From assembly GCF_000298235.1 (NCBI RefSeq), contig NZ_BAHE01000030.1:1-64000 (forward strand): a stretch of DNA of 64,000 nucleotides, given 5' to 3'. The translations under genes and the position numbers were made by a program. Position 1 is the stretch's first letter; every line of letters begins with the position of its first letter. A model generated the notes under the pieces. The model saw only the letters and a program-made list of their open reading frames with translations, searched no databases and was not told where the DNA came from. Positions 36,849-44,260 of the stretch are shown in pieces. Source of the DNA: Gordonia namibiensis NBRC 108229. Lineage in GTDB: Bacteria > Actinomycetota > Actinomycetes > Mycobacteriales > Mycobacteriaceae.

Positions 36849-38084
36849 TCAGCGCCGCAGCTCCGACTTGGCGATGGTGCGGATGTGCACCTCGTCCGGA
36901 CCGTCGAAGATGCGCATCGCGCGGTGCCAGCCGTACATTGCGGCCAGCGGCACGTCGTCGCTGACGCCGGCGCCACCGTGGACCTGGATCGCCCGGTCGA
37001 TGACCTCGAGCGCGACCCGCGGCACCGACACCTTGGCGGCCGAGACATACGGCGCGGCGGCCTTGTTGCCGAGTTCGTCGATCGTCTTCGAGGCCAGCTG
37101 GCACAGCAGACGAGCCTGGTCGATCGCGATGCGCGACTCGGCGATCTGCTGCTGCACGACGCCCTGCTCGGCCAGCGGCTTGCCGAACGCGACGCGCCCC
37201 TTCGACCGCTGGACCATGAGGTGCAGAGCACGTTCGGCAGCGCCGAGCGCACGCATGCAGTGGTGGATGCGGCCGGGGCCGAGGCGCGCCTGCGCCATGG
37301 CGAATCCGCCGCCTTCCTCACCGAGCAGGTTCTCGACGGGCACCCGGACGTTGTCGTACACGATCTCGACGTGACCGTGCTGGTCGTGACGACCGAACAC
37401 CGGTACGTCGCGGACCACGGTGACACCCGGGGTGTCGATCGGGACCAGCACCATCGACTGCTGTCGGTGGGTCGCCGCCTCGGGATCGGTCTTGCCCATC
37501 ACGATGAGCAGCTTGCAGCGCGGGTCGGCCGCACCGCTCGTCCACCACTTCCGGCCGTTGATGATGTAGGAGTCGCCGTCGCGAGAGATGCTGGTCTCGA
37601 TGTTGGTCGCATCCGAACTCGCGACGTCCTTCTCGGTCATCGAGAACGCCGACCGAATTCGGCCGTCGAGCAGCGGTTCCAGCCAGGTCTGCTTCTGATC
37701 CTCGGTGCCGAACAGGTGCAGCAGCTCCATGTTCCCGGTGTCGGGCGCCGCACCGTTGACGGCTTCGGGCGCCAGATGCAGGCTCCAGCCGGTGATCTCG
37801 GCCAGACCGGCGTAGTCGAGCTGGCTGATCCCGGATTCGGACGGCAGGAACAGATTCCACAGGCCGCGTGCGCGGGCCCGCTTCTTCAGCTCCTCGACGA
37901 CCGCCGGCACGGCGTGATCGTCGGGACCGGCGAAGCCGCGCTCCTCTTCGTAGCGCTGCTCCGCCGGGAAGACGTCGGAGTGCATGAACGCAATGAGTTC
38001 CTCGCGCAGCTCCAACGCCTTCGCCGACGGCCGCAGATCCAGCGTCTCGGCCGGGGTGCGGAAGTTCAGATCCGGCTGGGTCAC
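36849..38084 (-). CDS. acyl-CoA dehydrogenase, ACAD10/11-like
   Basis: A 411-residue acyl-CoA dehydrogenase. An extended N-terminus (ELREELIAFMHSDVFPAEQRY) and RGLWNLFLPSE mark the ACAD10/11 subgroup. The FAD segment is AFSMTEKDVASSDATNI, and the C-terminus has QVHGGAGVSDDVPLAAMYGWHRAMRIFDGPDEVH. It would introduce a double bond in an acyl-CoA made by the ligase upstream. The GTG start overlaps the ligase stop (GTGA). It is the last gene before a strong terminator. Confidence 0.9.
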   Translation of the reverse strand: MTQPDLNFRTPAETLDLRPSAKALELREELIAFMHSDVFPAEQRYEEERGFAGPDDHAVPAVVEELKKRARARGLWNLFLPSESGISQLDYAGLAEITGWSLHLAPEAVNGAAPDTGNMELLHLFGTEDQKQTWLEPLLDGRIRSAFSMTEKDVASSDATNIETSISRDGDSYIINGRKWWTSGAADPRCKLLIVMGKTDPEAATHRQQSMVLVPIDTPGVTVVRDVPVFGRHDQHGHVEIVYDNVRVPVENLLGEEGGGFAMAQARLGPGRIHHCMRALGAAERALHLMVQRSKGRVAFGKPLAEQGVVQQQIAESRIAIDQARLLCQLASKTIDELGNKAAAPYVSAAKVSVPRVALEVIDRAIQVHGGAGVSDDVPLAAMYGWHRAMRIFDGPDEVHIRTIAKSELRR

Positions 38085-39742
38085 TGTGCCACCGTCCGCA
38101 GTTCGCGACGCAGCAGCTTGCCCGTGGCGGTCTTGGGGATGTCGCCCATCACCACGACCTCGCGCGGGTACTTGTAGGCCGCCATCCGCGTCTTGCAGTG
38201 GTCGATCAGTTCCTCCGGCGTCGCCTCCGTTCCCGGACGCAGACTCACGAACGCCTTCACGGTCTCACCGCGGTAGGAGTCGGGCACGCCGACGACGGCG
38301 GCCTCACGAACCGAAGGATGTTCGTACAGGACGTCTTCGACCTCGCGTGGCCACACCTTGAAACCGCTGGTGTTGATCTGGTCCTTCTTGCGGTCGACGA
38401 TGTAGAACCATCCGTCGGCGTCCATGTAGCCGACGTCGCCGGTGTGCAGCACGCCGTTCGGGATGCCCTTCGCGGTCGCCTCCGGCTTGTTCCAGTAACC
38501 GGCGACCACCTGCGGGCCGGCGGTGACCAGCTCGCCGACCTGGCCCGCGGGTAGGTCGTTGCCCTGCTCGTCGACGATCCGGACGACCGTGTCGTACACC
38601 GGGATTCCCACCGAGGTGGCCCCGGTCTCCTCGTCGGACGGAGCCGTCACACCGAACGGCACCGCATGCGACGGAGACGTGGTCTCGGTCAGGCCGTACA
38701 CGTTGTGGATGTAGTGACCGAACCGCTGCTGGAATTCGGCGATCGTGCTCGGCGGGATCGGCGCCCCACCGGAGTAGATCTTCGACAGGGTCTTCAGCGA
38801 TGCCGGGTCGATGTCCGGCACGTTCATCAGCGCGATGAACACCGTGATCGATCCGACCGTGAACGTCGCCTTCTCCCGCGCGATGGTCGCGATGGTGTCC
38901 GCCGGGTCCATCCGGTACATCAGGACCAGCGGCGCACCGGTGAGTTCGGCCAGTGCGATGTGCGCGATGAGACCGGTGATGTGGAACAGCGGAGCGACGC
39001 CCAGGATCACGTCGTCGCTGTCGACACCGACCCAGTCGCGGTAGGTCTGCGCGTTGAACACGACGTTGCGATGGGTGGTCATCGCGCCCTTGGGCGGTCC
39101 GGTGGTTCCCGACGTGTAGGTCAGGAAGGCGACGCTGTCTGCGGTGAGATCGACCTCGGGCGGGCGCTGACCGCGGTACTTGGCGAGCATCGTCGCCAGG
39201 TCGACGGTGTCGGGGCAGTCGATCTTCTCGACACCGGCCAGGGTTCCGCTGTTCGCGGTCTGGTACTCCAGCTCCGAGGTGGTGATGACGGTCCGCACCG
39301 CGGTCTTGTTGTCGCGCAACGCCTCCTGTGCGACGTCGCGGTACAGCGACTGCATCGCGACCAGTACCGTGGCGCCGGAATCGACGAGGATCTCGGCTAG
39401 TTCACGGCTGCGGTACATCGGGTTGGCCGAGACGGCGATGCCGCCGGCCTTCCAGATACCCAGCTGCGCGATGACGAACTGCGGGATGTTCTGGGCGTAG
39501 ACCACCGCGCGGTCACCCGGGGTGAAGCCCAGGTCCAGGATGCCGACCGCGAACGCGTCGGTCAGCTCGTCGAGCTCACCGGCCGTGATCGATCCGTCGA
39601 AGTAGCGGATCAGGTCGGCGCCGGGGTTGCGCGCGGCGGTGGCCGCGAACATGTCCAGCGCGGTCTCGAATTCGATACTGCGCGGCGCGAGATCCTGCTC
39701 GCGGTAGTGGCTGCGCCACACCTTGTCGTCGTAGACACTCAT
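38081..39742 (-). CDS. acyl-CoA ligase (class I adenylate-forming)
   Basis: A 553-residue ANL-family ligase with P-loop LTYTSGTTGPPKGAMTTHRN, A5 NVYGLTETTSPSHA, hinge YIVDRKKDQINTSGFKVWP and C-terminal Lys segment KTATGKLLRREL. It is a clear paralogue of the divergent ligase at 41984-43618 (shared RYFDG/HYFG openings and MAAYKYPREV near the end). The substrate is unknown; the companion cyclase-family enzyme suggests a cyclic or aromatic-derived acid. It is 39 nt after the cyclase gene and coupled to the dehydrogenase. Confidence 0.9.
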   Translation of the reverse strand: MSVYDDKVWRSHYREQDLAPRSIEFETALDMFAATAARNPGADLIRYFDGSITAGELDELTDAFAVGILDLGFTPGDRAVVYAQNIPQFVIAQLGIWKAGGIAVSANPMYRSRELAEILVDSGATVLVAMQSLYRDVAQEALRDNKTAVRTVITTSELEYQTANSGTLAGVEKIDCPDTVDLATMLAKYRGQRPPEVDLTADSVAFLTYTSGTTGPPKGAMTTHRNVVFNAQTYRDWVGVDSDDVILGVAPLFHITGLIAHIALAELTGAPLVLMYRMDPADTIATIAREKATFTVGSITVFIALMNVPDIDPASLKTLSKIYSGGAPIPPSTIAEFQQRFGHYIHNVYGLTETTSPSHAVPFGVTAPSDEETGATSVGIPVYDTVVRIVDEQGNDLPAGQVGELVTAGPQVVAGYWNKPEATAKGIPNGVLHTGDVGYMDADGWFYIVDRKKDQINTSGFKVWPREVEDVLYEHPSVREAAVVGVPDSYRGETVKAFVSLRPGTEATPEELIDHCKTRMAAYKYPREVVVMGDIPKTATGKLLRRELRTVAQ

Positions 39743-39781: not shown

Positions 39782-40762
39782 TCAGCGGATGACGACGGGG
39801 TTCACCGGCGCACCGGTGCCGCTGACGACCTTGAGCGGTGCCGCGACGTACAGGAAGCTCCAGCGGTTGTCGGCGGCACACGCCTCGGCCAGCTCCTCGA
39901 GCCAGACGATCTCGGTGAACACGACACCCAGGTTGCGCATGAGCGCGTTGTGAAGTGGAAGCGCCACACCAGATTCGGGGTCGGTGGTGACCTCGTTGGC
40001 GATGGTGTCGGTGACCAGGTTGGGGATCTCCTTGTCCTGGAACCACTGCACGAGTTCACGCGAGTAGGTCAGGCCGGGCTCGCAGAAGCCGTCGTAGAAC
40101 TCTTCCGGGTTGTTCAGCTCGTACCAGTAGGTCAGCCACCCGGTGCGGATGATCAGGATGTCGTGCGGCTCGATGGTGACACCCTGTGCGGCAGCGGCGG
40201 CCTCGAGGTCGTTGTGGTCGAAGGTCTCACCCTTGTCCAGGTACTTCTTGCCGCGGTACCGGGCCATGTCGATGAGCACACCACGGCCGACGACGCCCTT
40301 CTCGGCGATCGGCAGGACCGACGCCTTCTCCAGTGCGTCGACGGTGCTGCGGGCGTCGTAGCCGTTGTAGAGCTTGCCGTCGTACCAGACGTGGCCGAGG
40401 GCGTCGTACTGCGTGGAGCCCTGCAGGAAGATGTTCGCGGTGTCGTCGGCGTAGTGCAGGCCGCCGGGGAACTGCGGCGCACCGTCACCGTCCCACGACG
40501 ACTCGTCGAGGATGTTCTTTCGGTTGATGCCCTCGCGGCCCGGCCACAGCGGATCTCCGGGGCTCTCGGTGCGACCCATCTCGATCTGGAGGGTGAAGGT
40601 CTCCCCCGACTTGATGTGGCCGACACCGCGCAGGACCTCGCTCGCGTCCAGGTAGTTCAGGGCGCCCACCTCGTCGTCGGGGCCCCACTTGCCCCAGTTC
40701 GACGGGGTGTCGGCTCCCAGCAGGTCACCCATGGACGGCGCAGCGGTCTCGATCTCGGTCAT
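39782..40762 (-). CDS. cyclase-family (PF04199) metal-dependent hydrolase
   Basis: A 326-residue member of the kynurenine formamidase/isatin hydrolase-like cyclase family. Visible are the start NWGKWGPDDEVGALNYLD, the segment STQYDALGHVWYDGKLYNG (variant of the HxGTHxDxPxH metal motif), and ILIIRTGW later in the chain. Family members hydrolyse cyclic amides or lactone-like bonds. Here it is first in a cyclase-ligase-dehydrogenase operon. The start is ATG 40762 with a strong AAAGGAG; the longer frame upstream covers the regulatory gap and is rejected. Confidence 0.87.
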   Translation of the reverse strand: MTEIETAAPSMGDLLGADTPSNWGKWGPDDEVGALNYLDASEVLRGVGHIKSGETFTLQIEMGRTESPGDPLWPGREGINRKNILDESSWDGDGAPQFPGGLHYADDTANIFLQGSTQYDALGHVWYDGKLYNGYDARSTVDALEKASVLPIAEKGVVGRGVLIDMARYRGKKYLDKGETFDHNDLEAAAAAQGVTIEPHDILIIRTGWLTYWYELNNPEEFYDGFCEPGLTYSRELVQWFQDKEIPNLVTDTIANEVTTDPESGVALPLHNALMRNLGVVFTEIVWLEELAEACAADNRWSFLYVAAPLKVVSGTGAPVNPVVIR

Positions 40763-41046
40763 CTCATCTCCTTTGATTCGATCCAGAGCGGAACCGACGG
40801 TTCCGGGTCGCACCCAGAACGGTGCGGACTGAACTTTGCGACTGAACTTTGTGAGCGCTCGCTCGGTGAGTTCATTGTGACGAGCATCGCACTCGTTCGC
40901 AACGCCGTCAAGAGGCGAAATCGGTGATGTCTCAGGGTTTGTCAGCAGCAGAGCGGAAAGCCCTGTACAAAAGGCAAGTTCAGCAAAGCTGAACACGCTC
41001 GAACCGGAGCCACAGAGCGTGGATCCGCCGACCGGTCCGAGGCGGC
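40763..41046 (-). promoter_or_regulatory. regulatory gap of the cyclase operon: direct repeats and palindromes
   Basis: This 284-nt gap holds a 12-bp direct repeat GACTGAACTTTG (40827-40838 and 40840-40851), the palindrome GAGCG-CT-CGCTC (40853-40864), and the palindrome GTTCAGC-AAA-GCTGAAC (40978-40994), which may also end the regulator transcript. The hexamer CTGAAC (either strand) occurs four times here and once at 41888-41893. Confidence 0.65.
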
Positions 41047-41886
41047 CTAGCGGTCGGCCTGATGCCCCACCATGGCGAGCGCCAGATCCGCGTACTCGCG
41101 AGCGATCCGGCGGCCGTGGGCGGCGTCGGAGTCGTCGGTCCAGGTCGGCACGGCCAGGCACATCGTGACGATCGCCTTGGTCGCCACGGACAGGTCACCC
41201 GACCGGAAGGCGCCTAGTTCGGCGGCGCGACGGGCCGTGTCGAGCAGGCGACCCTCGATCTGCGCCATCGACGCCTGCAGGTGCGTGCGGTTGGGTTCCT
41301 CCAGACGCCGCAGCTCTGTCGCCAGGACGAGCGCCAGCGCACGCCGCTCGACGTGGAACAGCGTGAGCGCCTCCACCATGTTGGCGAAAGCGGTCACCGC
41401 GTCGACGCCGTCACCGGCCGCGTCGAGGCGTTGGGCCAGGTCAGCGTGGGCAATGTTGACCAGCGCGACGAGCAGATGCTGCTTGCTCGGGTAGTGGTGA
41501 TAGATGCCGGCGACACTGATGTCGGCGCCGGCCGCGATGAGGCGCATCGTGGCACCGTGGTAGCCGAGCTCTTCGAAGACGTCGATCGCCGACTCCAGCA
41601 CCGGGTCCAGGGTCAGCGGGGCGAACACACGCCAGTCCGTCGGGTCCGCGGCGACCTCGACCTTCTCCGGTTGCGGCGACTCGAGAAAACGTGCGACGGG
41701 CACGTCCAGGCACTGCGCGATCTGACGCAAGCGGTCGACGGTGAGCCCGACCTTGCCGTTCTCGATGGCGCTCATGGTCCCGACGCTCACCCCGATACCG
41801 GCAGCCAGCCCACGCAGCGTCACGCCCGCCTGCTTGCGCAACTCGCGCACGGCGGCGCCGCTGTCGGTCACCGGTTGTTCGACCAC
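41047..41886 (-). CDS. dual-HTH regulator: XRE domain fused to TetR-family domain
   Basis: A 279-residue protein with two DNA-binding domains. Residues 10-65 are an XRE helix-turn-helix (VRELRKQAGVTLRGLAAG, GVSVGTMSAIENGKVGLTV). Residues 90-140 are a TetR helix-turn-helix (VLESAIDVFEELGY, AGADISVAGIYHHYPSKQHLL), followed by a helical ligand-binding half. Such fusions occur in Actinobacteria but are poorly studied. It lies upstream of the cyclase operon and divergent from the second ligase, so control of both is likely. The GTG start at 41886 is 7 nt after a TAAGCT -10 (leaderless), and a GTTCAG half-site sits exactly in that gap. Confidence 0.88.
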   Translation of the reverse strand: MVEQPVTDSGAAVRELRKQAGVTLRGLAAGIGVSVGTMSAIENGKVGLTVDRLRQIAQCLDVPVARFLESPQPEKVEVAADPTDWRVFAPLTLDPVLESAIDVFEELGYHGATMRLIAAGADISVAGIYHHYPSKQHLLVALVNIAHADLAQRLDAAGDGVDAVTAFANMVEALTLFHVERRALALVLATELRRLEEPNRTHLQASMAQIEGRLLDTARRAAELGAFRSGDLSVATKAIVTMCLAVPTWTDDSDAAHGRRIAREYADLALAMVGHQADR

Positions 41887-41887
41887 G

Positions 41888-41926
41888 CTGAACAGCTTAT
41901 GGGGAGGCGCCCATTTTTCGTAGACT
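41888..41926. promoter_or_regulatory. divergent promoter region of the XRE-TetR and ligase genes
   Basis: On the minus strand TAAGCT (41899-41894) precedes GTG 41886 by 7 nt; CTGAAC/GTTCAG (41888-41893) lies between them. On the plus strand TAGACT (41921-41926) is a -10 candidate for the ligase at 41984, giving a leader of about 50 nt. Confidence 0.5.
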
Positions 41927-41983
41927 CATCCTCGTGCTCCACGATCTGTCGCCTCGCTCGCGTCGCCCCGAACGCTCGTACGC

Positions 41984-43618
41984 ATGAACGCCTACGAGAG
42001 CCGTCCCTGGCTGGCCAACTACCCGCCCGGACTCTCCGAGCACCTCGACCTCGAGTTCGGGTCCCCGCTCGAGGCGTTCGACGCCGCGCTCGCTGCGGCT
42101 CCCGACGCTCCGGCCGTCCACTACTTCGGCGCGACGCTGAGCTGGGCCGACCTCGACGCCGCCTCCGACGCCCTGGCCCACGCGCTCGGGGAACACGGCT
42201 TCGCGGCCGGCGACCGGCTGGGCATCGCCGTCCAGAACGAGCCGGCAATCATCCTCGGACTCCTCGCGGCCTGGAAGGCCGGCGGCGTCGCCGCTCTGAT
42301 CAGCCCCATGTACAAGCGCAGCGAATTCCGCAGGGCCCTCGACGATTTCACGCCAACCGCGCTGCTCATCCTCGACGAGGTCCACGCGGAGGTCGCCGAC
42401 GAGCTCGGGTCGATCGGACTCGTCGTCACGGCCTCGCCACTCGACTTCGCAGGCAGCGACGATCTGCAGCGCGTGTTCGACGTGTCCCGGGTTGCCACGG
42501 CAGGCACCGTCGAACTCCTCGACCTGATCGGCACCGGCTCGCGGGCGATCACCCGGCACGTACCCGCACCGGATGACGTCGCGGTGCTGGCACCGACGTC
42601 GGGCACCACCGGCCCACCCAAGGGCGCGAAGCTGACGCACCGGAACCTCGCGTTCAGCGCGCAGGCCTATCGCACCTGGACCGGGCTGGAACTCGGCGAG
42701 CCGATCCTGTGCATGTCGCCGATCTTCCACGTCACCGGCCTGGTGGGCTCGGTGATGCTGGCGCTGTCCCTGCGCTCCCCGCTCGTTCTCACCCACCGAT
42801 TCGACGCCGGCCTGATCTTCGACGCGGTGCGAGCCTGGCGTCCGGCGTTCTCCGTCGCCTCGATCACCGCCTACATCGCGCTGGCCGACCATCCCGACGC
42901 GTCGCCCGAGGCGTTCGAGTCACTCCGACTCCGCTATTCGGGGGGCGCACCGGTCCTCCCCGACGTCGCCGAACGGATCGAAGAACGCCTGGGCGGGATG
43001 ATCCACAACGTGTACGGGCAGACCGAGTCCACCTCGCCGACCCACATGGTGCCGCCCGGTGTCCCCGCGCCGGTCGATCCCGAAACCGGTGCTCTGTCAG
43101 TCGGTCTGCCGATCTTCGACACGATGGCCCGGGTCGTCGACGAGCGCGGCGAACCGCTGCCGCCGGGCAATTTCGGCGAGATCGTCACGGCCGGACCGCA
43201 GATCGCCGCCGGCTACTGGGGTCAGGTCGACGACGACGGATCGGCGCTGCGCAACGGTGAGATGCGTACCGGCGACGTGGGTTTCATGGATGCCGACGGC
43301 TGGTTCTACGTCATCGACCGCAGCAACGACCTGATCAACGCGTCCGGGTACAAGATCTGGCCGTTCGAGATCGAGCAGGTGCTGCAGTCGCATCCGGCGG
43401 TGCTCGAGACGGCTGTGGTCGGAATCCCCGACGACTACCGCGGTGAGTCGACCCGCGCCTACGTCGCCCTCCAACCGGGTGCGGAGGCCACGCCGACCGA
43501 ACTCATCGAGTACTGCCGCGAACGGATGGCGGCCTACAAGTACCCGCGCGAGGTCGAGATCGTCGGAGCGCTCCCACGCAGCGCGACCGGCAAGTTGCTG
43601 CGCCGCGAACTGCGCTGA
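41984..43618 (+). CDS. acyl-CoA ligase, paralogue of the operon ligase
   Basis: A 544-residue ANL-family ligase with P-loop APTSGTTGPPKGAKLTHRN, A5 NVYGQTESTSPTHM, hinge YVIDRSNDLINASGYKIWP, and the C-terminal Lys segment RSATGKLLRREL. It is similar in layout and many positions to the ligase at 38081-39742, suggesting duplication and substrate divergence. ATG 41984 has no obvious Shine-Dalgarno. The gene ends 0 nt from the converging TetR stop. Its substrate is unknown. Confidence 0.9.
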   Translation: MNAYESRPWLANYPPGLSEHLDLEFGSPLEAFDAALAAAPDAPAVHYFGATLSWADLDAASDALAHALGEHGFAAGDRLGIAVQNEPAIILGLLAAWKAGGVAALISPMYKRSEFRRALDDFTPTALLILDEVHAEVADELGSIGLVVTASPLDFAGSDDLQRVFDVSRVATAGTVELLDLIGTGSRAITRHVPAPDDVAVLAPTSGTTGPPKGAKLTHRNLAFSAQAYRTWTGLELGEPILCMSPIFHVTGLVGSVMLALSLRSPLVLTHRFDAGLIFDAVRAWRPAFSVASITAYIALADHPDASPEAFESLRLRYSGGAPVLPDVAERIEERLGGMIHNVYGQTESTSPTHMVPPGVPAPVDPETGALSVGLPIFDTMARVVDERGEPLPPGNFGEIVTAGPQIAAGYWGQVDDDGSALRNGEMRTGDVGFMDADGWFYVIDRSNDLINASGYKIWPFEIEQVLQSHPAVLETAVVGIPDDYRGESTRAYVALQPGAEATPTELIEYCRERMAAYKYPREVEIVGALPRSATGKLLRRELR

Positions 43619-44260
43619 TCAGACCCGGCAGCCGAGTGCGGCCAGGGCCATCGCGGTGAGCAGACGACGCAGTTCGGACTCGTCGTAGGCGGGCAAGCGG
43701 GGCGAGGAGTTGAGCAGGCCGAACGTCGCGTGCACGCGGACGCGCGCCTCGGCCCGGTCGAGGGTGCGGCCCTCCCGCTGGTAGACGGCGATCACGACGT
43801 CGACCCAGCGTTCGACGTAGCGCCGCTGCAACAGTCGGACACGGTGGTTGGCCTCCGGCGTCATCGACGACAGATCACGATCCTGGACGACGATCAGGTC
43901 GGGCTTCGTGACGAGCACGTCGATGTGAAAACCGATGAGCGCCAACAGGGTCTCGGACGGCGGCCCGCCGCGGTCGACGACCTCGGCACCGCCGTCGTGC
44001 AGCCGCTGGCTGATGTCGACGAGCATCTCGTCGAGCAGTTCGGTCTTCGACGAGAAGTGCCGGTACATGGCCGGTCCACTCACACCGACCGCACGCCCGA
44101 TGTCCTCGAGACGCACACCGGCGAAGCCGCGCTCGGCCATCTGCCGCGCGGCCGCGGTCAGCAGCTCGGCGCGCCGTGCGGCCTTCGCCTGGGTGCGACG
44201 GGTCGGCGGGCGGGGAACGTCCCCCGTCTCGACCGGTGGGGTGTCACTGGTGGCGGACAT
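43619..44260 (-). CDS. TetR-family regulator
   Basis: A 213-residue protein. A Lys/Arg-rich head (RRTQAKAARRAELL) is followed by the TetR helix-turn-helix (MAERGFAGVRLEDIGRAVGVSGPAMYRHFSSKTELLDEML) and an all-helical ligand domain. The layout resembles mycobacterial and Gordonia FadD/ACAD-linked TetRs. It is convergent with the ligase gene. ATG 44260 lies 10 nt after a TAGAGT -10 (44276-44271), so the leader is very short. The gene just upstream is a nitroreductase on the same strand. Confidence 0.87.
   Translation of the reverse strand: MSATSDTPPVETGDVPRPPTRRTQAKAARRAELLTAAARQMAERGFAGVRLEDIGRAVGVSGPAMYRHFSSKTELLDEMLVDISQRLHDGGAEVVDRGGPPSETLLALIGFHIDVLVTKPDLIVVQDRDLSSMTPEANHRVRLLQRRYVERWVDVVIAVYQREGRTLDRAEARVRVHATFGLLNSSPRLPAYDESELRRLLTAMALAALGCRV

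Follow-up and report, generated by a model that had tools for sequence, protein, structure and literature searches.

To our knowledge, few descriptions exist of bacterial one-component regulators that combine two unrelated DNA-binding domains, and the target of each domain is usually unclear. The double-TetR repressor Mce3R shows that a single operator can serve two unlike helix-turn-helix (HTH) domains of the same chain (PMC11667970); ClgR, an XRE activator of clp genes, reportedly binds GTTCGC-5N-GCG (PMC9775585); and PfmR/TTHB023, a TetR protein associated with fatty-acid genes, binds a 16-bp palindrome (PMC7022988). The protein under discussion, designated REG, is an XRE–TetR fusion encoded in a 64,000-nucleotide stretch of Gordonia namibiensis NBRC 108229 (contig NZ_BAHE01000030.1, positions 1 to 64,000; this whole stretch is called the window), and is probably an autoregulating repressor with two DNA codes, its XRE domain reading the dyad GTTCAG-N5-CTGAAC and its TetR domain the palindrome ACCGAnCGnnCGnTCGGT. 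It resembles Mce3R in having two non-identical HTHs per chain, in its predicted autoregulation and in a connection with lipid metabolism, but Mce3R is built of two TetR units and its 25-bp site is not a palindrome (PMC11667970), whereas the HTHs of REG, one TetR_N and one HTH_3, come from different families, each apparently with its own palindromic code. The ClgR operator shares outer bases and spacing with the dyad, which fits the assignment of the dyad to the XRE domain, but its inner half-site differs and ClgR has no TetR part (PMC9775585). PfmR/TTHB023 offers a TetR palindrome of similar kind, though it is TetR only, with no XRE part, and its consensus differs in detail (PMC7022988). No characterised XRE–TetR fusion appeared among the matches listed from the open literature, most subscription journals lying outside it, which is not proof of absence; a Gordonia dsz paper, as excerpted, deals with separate TetR and XRE proteins (PMC6534649), and no passage on XRE–TetR fusions was found in the excerpted part of a mycobacterial TetR survey (PMC4482099).

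Pfam matches to HTH_3 (E-value 3.4e-11; 43.5 bits against a cut-off of 23), TetR_N (3.3e-15; 56 bits against 24) and TetR_C_24 (2.8e-15; 57 bits against 26.4) place REG in both the Cro/C1-type HTH and the TetR families and bear out the two HTH domains noticed in an earlier sequence-only reading of this DNA. An AlphaFold2 model (56 sequences as input; mean predicted local distance difference test score, pLDDT, 88.7) has five helices at residues 10-68 for the XRE part and a TetR fold with a helical C-terminal ligand domain at 95-272, joined by a poorly ordered linker (pLDDT < 50 at residues 71-77). The Mce3R structure 9b7y is a phmmer relative of the TetR part (1.7e-9), and the second-best PDB match to that part is 3vpr (5.5e-15), presumably PfmR/TTHB023; the XRE part is weakly related by sequence to ClgR (structures 5woq and 3f51; E ~5e-4). 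REG falls below the NCBIfam cut-offs for the ClgR equivalog (26.5 bits vs 170) and for ScbR-type autoregulator-binding TetR proteins (46.1 bits vs 150). The named species with its closest relatives are Gordonia alkanivorans (96%) and G. amicalis (91%).

The sequence-only reading had drawn attention to the hexamer CTGAAC, and all five copies, on either strand, lie where it had placed them. The 381 bp of noncoding DNA searched (284 bp between cyclase and regulator genes, 97 bp between regulator and ligase genes) would be expected to hold 0.28 copies under a first-order Markov model, and five were reached in 0 of 20,000 simulations. The hexamer was, however, picked post hoc, so that the fair figure is that for any hexamer with five copies in this noncoding DNA (P = 0.07), and one genome would not settle the motif; the window as a whole has a mild excess of CTGAAC (31 vs 21.2 expected, with 2 of 100 shuffles as high). 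Comparison across genomes makes this borderline motif a strong one and shows CTGAAC to be one arm of a 17-bp dyad, GTTCAG-N5-CTGAAC, whose half-site centres lie 11 bp apart, an inverted pair about one helical turn apart as is usual in the XRE family. Two degenerate half-sites had been overlooked, both conserved in position among relatives: TCGAAC (41877-41882), the second half of a dyad at the REG start codon, and ATGAAC (40870-40875), the outer half of the putative cyclase operator. The sequence does contain the copy between the -10 box and the start codon, the 7-bp palindrome and the 12-bp direct repeats, but the seventh base of the palindrome is unconserved, and the extra copy contributed by the direct repeat (40829-40834) exists in the window but is otherwise found in only some close relatives (L031 and L036/L100).

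Two predicted operators of this form, O1 and O2 (positions in the table below), bracket REG, 826-900 bp apart in syntenic loci (L155 excepted). Each matches the dyad at 11 of 12 or more bases in all 28 distinct syntenic loci, that is, in the syntenic rows left, L155 apart, after those with identical O1 and O2 were dropped. O1 is imperfect in the window and perfect in most distant relatives. The layout TANNNT-GTTCAGN-RTG, a -10-like box followed at once by O1, recurs in 39 of 40 syntenic rows, the sole exception being L155, and so in all 28 distinct loci, and suggests a leaderless REG message; the promoter boxes here and at the cyclase operon are by-eye predictions. O2 in many distant relatives has its CTGAAC containing the REG stop codon (offset -12), while in the window group 46-56 bp separate it from the stop and it is still intact; coding constraint therefore does not account for it.

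The dyad tracks the XRE domain. Relatives of REG were reduced to representatives < 75% identical to each other, 77 fusions and 29 TetR-only, the latter taken from 47 loci where a TetR match was found and a match to the XRE part of REG was not (55 were supplied; 8 without an alignable TetR match, being 8 of the 15 own-genome TetR_C_24 paralogues, were dropped). At 11/12 or better, the dyad is present beside 60 of the 77 fusions, 50 of them perfect, against 1/77 control stretches, and beside 1 of the 29 TetR-only representatives (at 11/12, none perfect; control 0/29), the difference between fusions and TetR-only having a Fisher P of 7.6e-13. A smaller TetR-only sample of 20 loci (7 representatives at < 75% identity) has 16 with the TetR-type palindrome and 0 with the dyad. 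When 67 representatives were scanned de novo for gapped palindromes, TTCAG-N5-CTGAA ranked first (31 vs 0 in control) and, shifted forms of it set aside, ACCGA-N8-TCGGT next (11 vs 0). Fusions in several genera, Gordonia, Rhodococcus and Nocardia among them, have the element conserved next to them, so that the conservation looked for on behalf of the earlier reading was found.

The half-site also shifts with residue 40 of the XRE recognition helix. Counting upstream dyads that match at 11/12 or better a form permitting C or T at position 4, 53 of 60 Ala40 fusions have one, with C at that position in 106/106 half-sites; among Gln40 fusions, 6 of 9 have one, with T in 8/12 half-sites (GTTTAG/CTAAAC), L198 having a perfect GTTTAG-CTTTT-CTAAAC. 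By locus, this difference has a Fisher P of 2.2e-8. Gly40 fusions have the dyad in 2 of 3 cases, with C. The proposal of the sequence-only reading that one half-site is read through both domains has in its favor that half-sites are found in direct or everted arrangement as well as in inverted dyads, but the rarity of the dyad beside TetR-only relatives, its co-variation with the XRE helix and the existence of a second, different palindrome suited to the TetR domain all stand against it and leave it very unlikely.

Across 61 genomes (37 in the genus set, including the organism's own, and 24 outside it), the exact dyad again follows the fusion. A fusion of at least 47% identity occurs in 18 of the 37 genus genomes, all 18 of which have the exact dyad; 17 of the other 19 lack it. 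One of the remaining two (G032) has it adjoining its own 40% fusion, and the other (G033) has it with 11-bp arms on a different contig from its fusion. Outside the genus, 4 of 24 genomes (G045, G046, G052 and G053) have one exact dyad each, known from short flanks, and a reversed control pattern was matched in 3 of the 61. It could be supposed that another widespread XRE protein such as ClgR, whose reported motif is similar, binds the dyad and that the proximity of the fusions is incidental. The absence from those 17 genomes and near absence from TetR-only loci, the dyads accompanying fusions in other gene neighbourhoods and the co-variation with the fusions' own XRE helix make this highly improbable.

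The REG genome itself has two exact dyads, one of them O2, and three one-mismatch sites, against one site at up to one mismatch for the reversed control. The second exact copy (L089:6850-6885, on contig C53 at ~56.85 kb) is the core of a perfect 15-bp inverted repeat, by eye between EamA-like transporter and thioredoxin-like genes, and looks like a terminator stem. A wider regulon was considered and rejected, and the regulator has been treated as local because this copy is an inverted-repeat stem. G025 has a third exact dyad copy (arm 6), and in four other genomes an exact dyad core lies ~2.6-2.8 kb from a TetR paralogue. Stems such as those of C53 and G033 give some color to the idea that the dyads in general are RNA hairpins, terminators or attenuators, rather than operators. 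That idea is scarcely credible in view of the overlap of O1 with the start codon of REG, whose message is predicted to be leaderless, of the TANNCT -10-like hexamer that spans spacer and half-site in 18 of 44 non-syntenic dyad representatives (2 of the 44 have the start-codon layout), and of the lack of a T-run after O2.

The TetR domain of REG most likely reads the separate palindrome ACCGAnCGnnCGnTCGGT, though this assignment, made like that of the dyad from sequence, is the less certain of the two. At 12/14 or better the TetR-type palindrome accompanies 51 of the 77 fusions, against 2 in control stretches, and some TetR-only relatives have it nearby too. In the promoter of the cyclase operon it would form the core of O3, a putative composite operator in which the palindrome closely follows the predicted start site and has CTGAAC/GTTCAG half-sites on both sides. 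The typical arrangement is TTGACG, ~17 bp, a GATGCT-like -10, CTGAAC, 3-5 bp, CCGAaCGnTCGnTCGg, 3-4 bp and GTTCAG; both flanks match at 5/6 or better in 21 of the 28 syntenic loci (chance ~0.1% per locus), and the core there and in relatives is a predicted site of the palindromic kind that TetR proteins use.

There is a small but real chance that the fusion acts on DNA through its XRE domain only, its TetR part merely sensing ligand and dimerising, and that the O3 palindrome is read by another TetR protein, for instance the one encoded at 43619-44260 or a TetR_C_24 paralogue. The genome has a further 15 TetR_C_24 matches, of which 12 exceed the cut-off; the palindrome lies beside some TetR-only relatives, so that several proteins could read it; and one fusion-less cyclase promoter (L233) has a palindrome-like stretch (10/12, possibly by chance). 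Against this, the TetR recognition region has the same Ser124, Gly127 and Tyr129 in all 56 fusions aligned, the palindrome keeps company with most fusions and, in 21 of the 28 syntenic loci, has XRE half-sites on either side at a nearly constant distance, and the TetR gene at 43619-44260 did not turn up in the stretches fetched for the ~50% syntenic loci.

Computation gives the motifs, where they lie, how well they are conserved and how the dyad depends on the XRE domain; from these we infer the following scheme for binding, repression, start sites, ligand and stoichiometry. XRE domains acting as a pair would read GTTCAG-N5-CTGAAC, while the TetR part, as a usual TetR dimer, would read ACCGAnCGnnCGnTCGGT and hold the ligand pocket. 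The O1 dyad would span from the -10 box to codon 4 of the leaderless message, and its occupancy would block the start of REG transcription; O2, near the stop codon and ~80-140 bp from the cyclase operator, would be a second, auxiliary XRE site. At O3, one dimer could hold the palindrome and two XRE half-sites, blocking RNA polymerase. A pathway acyl-CoA, the putative ligand suggested by the gene neighbourhood and by TetR_C_24, would then free the TetR part, and the operon would be induced. Control of its own gene and of the cyclase operon, as the sequence-only reading had it, is thus supported by operator placement; control of the divergent ligase gene LIG2 is possible, the centre of the start-codon dyad lying ~48 bp upstream of the predicted LIG2 start.

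XRE and TetR half-site centres in O3 are ~10 bp apart and, judging from this geometry, would share one DNA face within reach of the linker. It is a tentative proposal, somewhat short of an even chance, that one dimer sits on O3 with its four HTHs in the order XRE–TetR–TetR–XRE, and that release of the TetR part alone frees the operon while O1 and O2 stay repressed. DNA looping, in which O1, O2 and O3 are bridged with the XRE pair and the TetR pair on different sites, would be compatible with two codes in one repressor and is considered rather unlikely: the same dyad stands at both ends of REG and the O2–O3 distance is 82-142 bp (L155 excluded), but when O2–O3 spacing was tested for helical phasing no significant period emerged (P 0.05-0.25).

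That last result also weighs against the two-code repressor, as do several others. The palindrome is present in only 8 of the 29 TetR-only representatives (1 in control stretches; Fisher P = 0.025). One or both O3 flanks are missing in 7 of 28 loci (L115, L101, L126, L118, L045, L041 and L123), the last four of which are one branch of the Gordonia tree that has kept O1 and O2 and lacks the XRE half-sites of the cyclase operator. The O3 half-sites are oriented opposite to those of O1 and O2, and the XRE pair must therefore be arranged differently there. In L155 the cyclase follows the fusion, yet there is no O1/O2 layout and just an 11/12 match further upstream; its relative L229/L197 behaves alike. 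The Gln40 fusions are a single clade, so that the independent events number one and the helix/half-site switch may be one event. Finally, no upstream dyad was found in any of 5 fusions of a Trp38 XRE subclass, or in 7 of the 60 Ala40 fusions.

Cyclase relatives were sought in 30 further genomes, and the promoters of the 9 found at the cut-off used were inspected. Five of these (L227, L228, L233, L234 and L235), with no fusion seen alongside, have neither dyad nor half-site-flanked palindrome; L227, like L233, has a palindrome-like stretch at 10/12 that may be chance. The L230 promoter has dyad and palindrome. Those of L231 and L232 have CTGAAC plus a palindrome-like stretch, and their genomes have a 42-44% fusion nearby, without the dyad at the fusion's own gene. 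L229 adjoins the fusion L197 and its cyclase promoter is without the dyad; upstream of L197 there is an 11/12 match, as in L155.

If the proposal of four HTHs on O3 is right, one protein would serve two operator codes with different ligand sensitivity, and REG would represent a widespread actinobacterial regulator class whose XRE code is predictable from helix residue 40. The absence of a domain in the TetR-only relatives, together with the Ala40 and Gln40 variants, separates the two codes by comparison alone and yields short, testable operators; such operators are predicted for XRE–TetR fusions in Gordonia, Rhodococcus, Nocardia, Mycolicibacterium, Nocardioides and Pseudonocardia. The fusion would be a natural case of combinatorial logic in one polypeptide.

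Table. Genes, domains and predicted regulatory elements at the REG locus (window coordinates).
Feature	Position	Strand	Remark
Acyl-CoA dehydrogenase	36849..38084	-	profile matches
AMP-forming acyl-CoA ligase LIG1	38081..39742	-	profile matches
Cyclase-family protein (PF04199), first gene of the operon	39782..40762	-	Pfam
Extra GTTCAG in 12-bp direct repeat	40829..40834	-	not generally conserved
O3 inner half-site GTTCAG (predicted)	40842..40847	-	syntenic comparison
O3 core, TetR-type palindrome CCGAGCGAGCGCTCAC (predicted)	40851..40866	-	10/12 motif bases
O3 outer half-site ATGAAC, degenerate CTGAAC (predicted)	40870..40875	-	reads CTGAAC in many distant syntenic relatives
Predicted cyclase-operon -10 GATGCT	40883..40888	-	O3 begins at ~+1
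Predicted cyclase-operon -35 TTGACG	40906..40911	-	TTGAC recurs there in syntenic promoters; 17 bp before -10
Operator O2 (predicted), GTTCAG-CTTTG-CTGAAC	40978..40994	-	downstream of REG stop codon
XRE–TetR fusion regulator (REG)	41047..41886	-	279 amino acids, GTG start; Pfam HTH_3 + TetR_N + TetR_C_24
TetR_C_24 ligand/dimerisation domain of REG, residues 167-273	41068..41388	-	Pfam
TetR_N DNA-binding domain of REG, residues 97-142	41461..41598	-	Pfam
XRE (HTH_3) domain of REG, residues 13-65	41692..41850	-	recognition helix 35-42, Ala40
Operator O1 (predicted), GTTCAG-CGTGG-TCGAAC	41877..41893	-	spacer contains REG GTG start codon
Predicted REG -10 box TAAGCT	41894..41899	-	TANNNT-GTTCAGN-RTG layout
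Predicted -10 TAGACT of LIG2	41921..41926	+	sequence; similar TANACT by eye in several relatives
Divergent acyl-CoA ligase LIG2	41984..43618	+	Pfam; synteny in relatives

REG lies upstream of the cyclase, LIG1 and acyl-CoA dehydrogenase genes on the same strand and is divergent from LIG2. LIG2 appears by eye to be leaderless in L041, L045 and L038, where TAGACT or TACACT is followed by six bases and GTG. The second TetR regulator, at 43619-44260, is convergent with LIG2, falls near the SACE_7040 family (218 bits, cut-off 250), and is present beside 5 of 6 close relatives and not seen beside the ~50% loci. In a set of paralogous fusions (L055, L056 and L057), GTTCGG-N5-CCGAAC lies after the stop codon and GTTCGG-N5-CTGAAC before the start, with a TetR-type palindrome, by eye, before a short-chain-dehydrogenase-like gene -- the same layout with a different target. 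Among close-relative rows, 8 of 10 have the acyl-CoA dehydrogenase gene after LIG1; no row at ~50% identity does. Other fusions, 40-41% identical to REG (L049, L050, L144, L148, L153 and L169), directly precede an acyl-CoA dehydrogenase gene whose product is 68-74% identical to that of the operon, an adjacency which hints that the operon may be assembled from parts under separate regulation.

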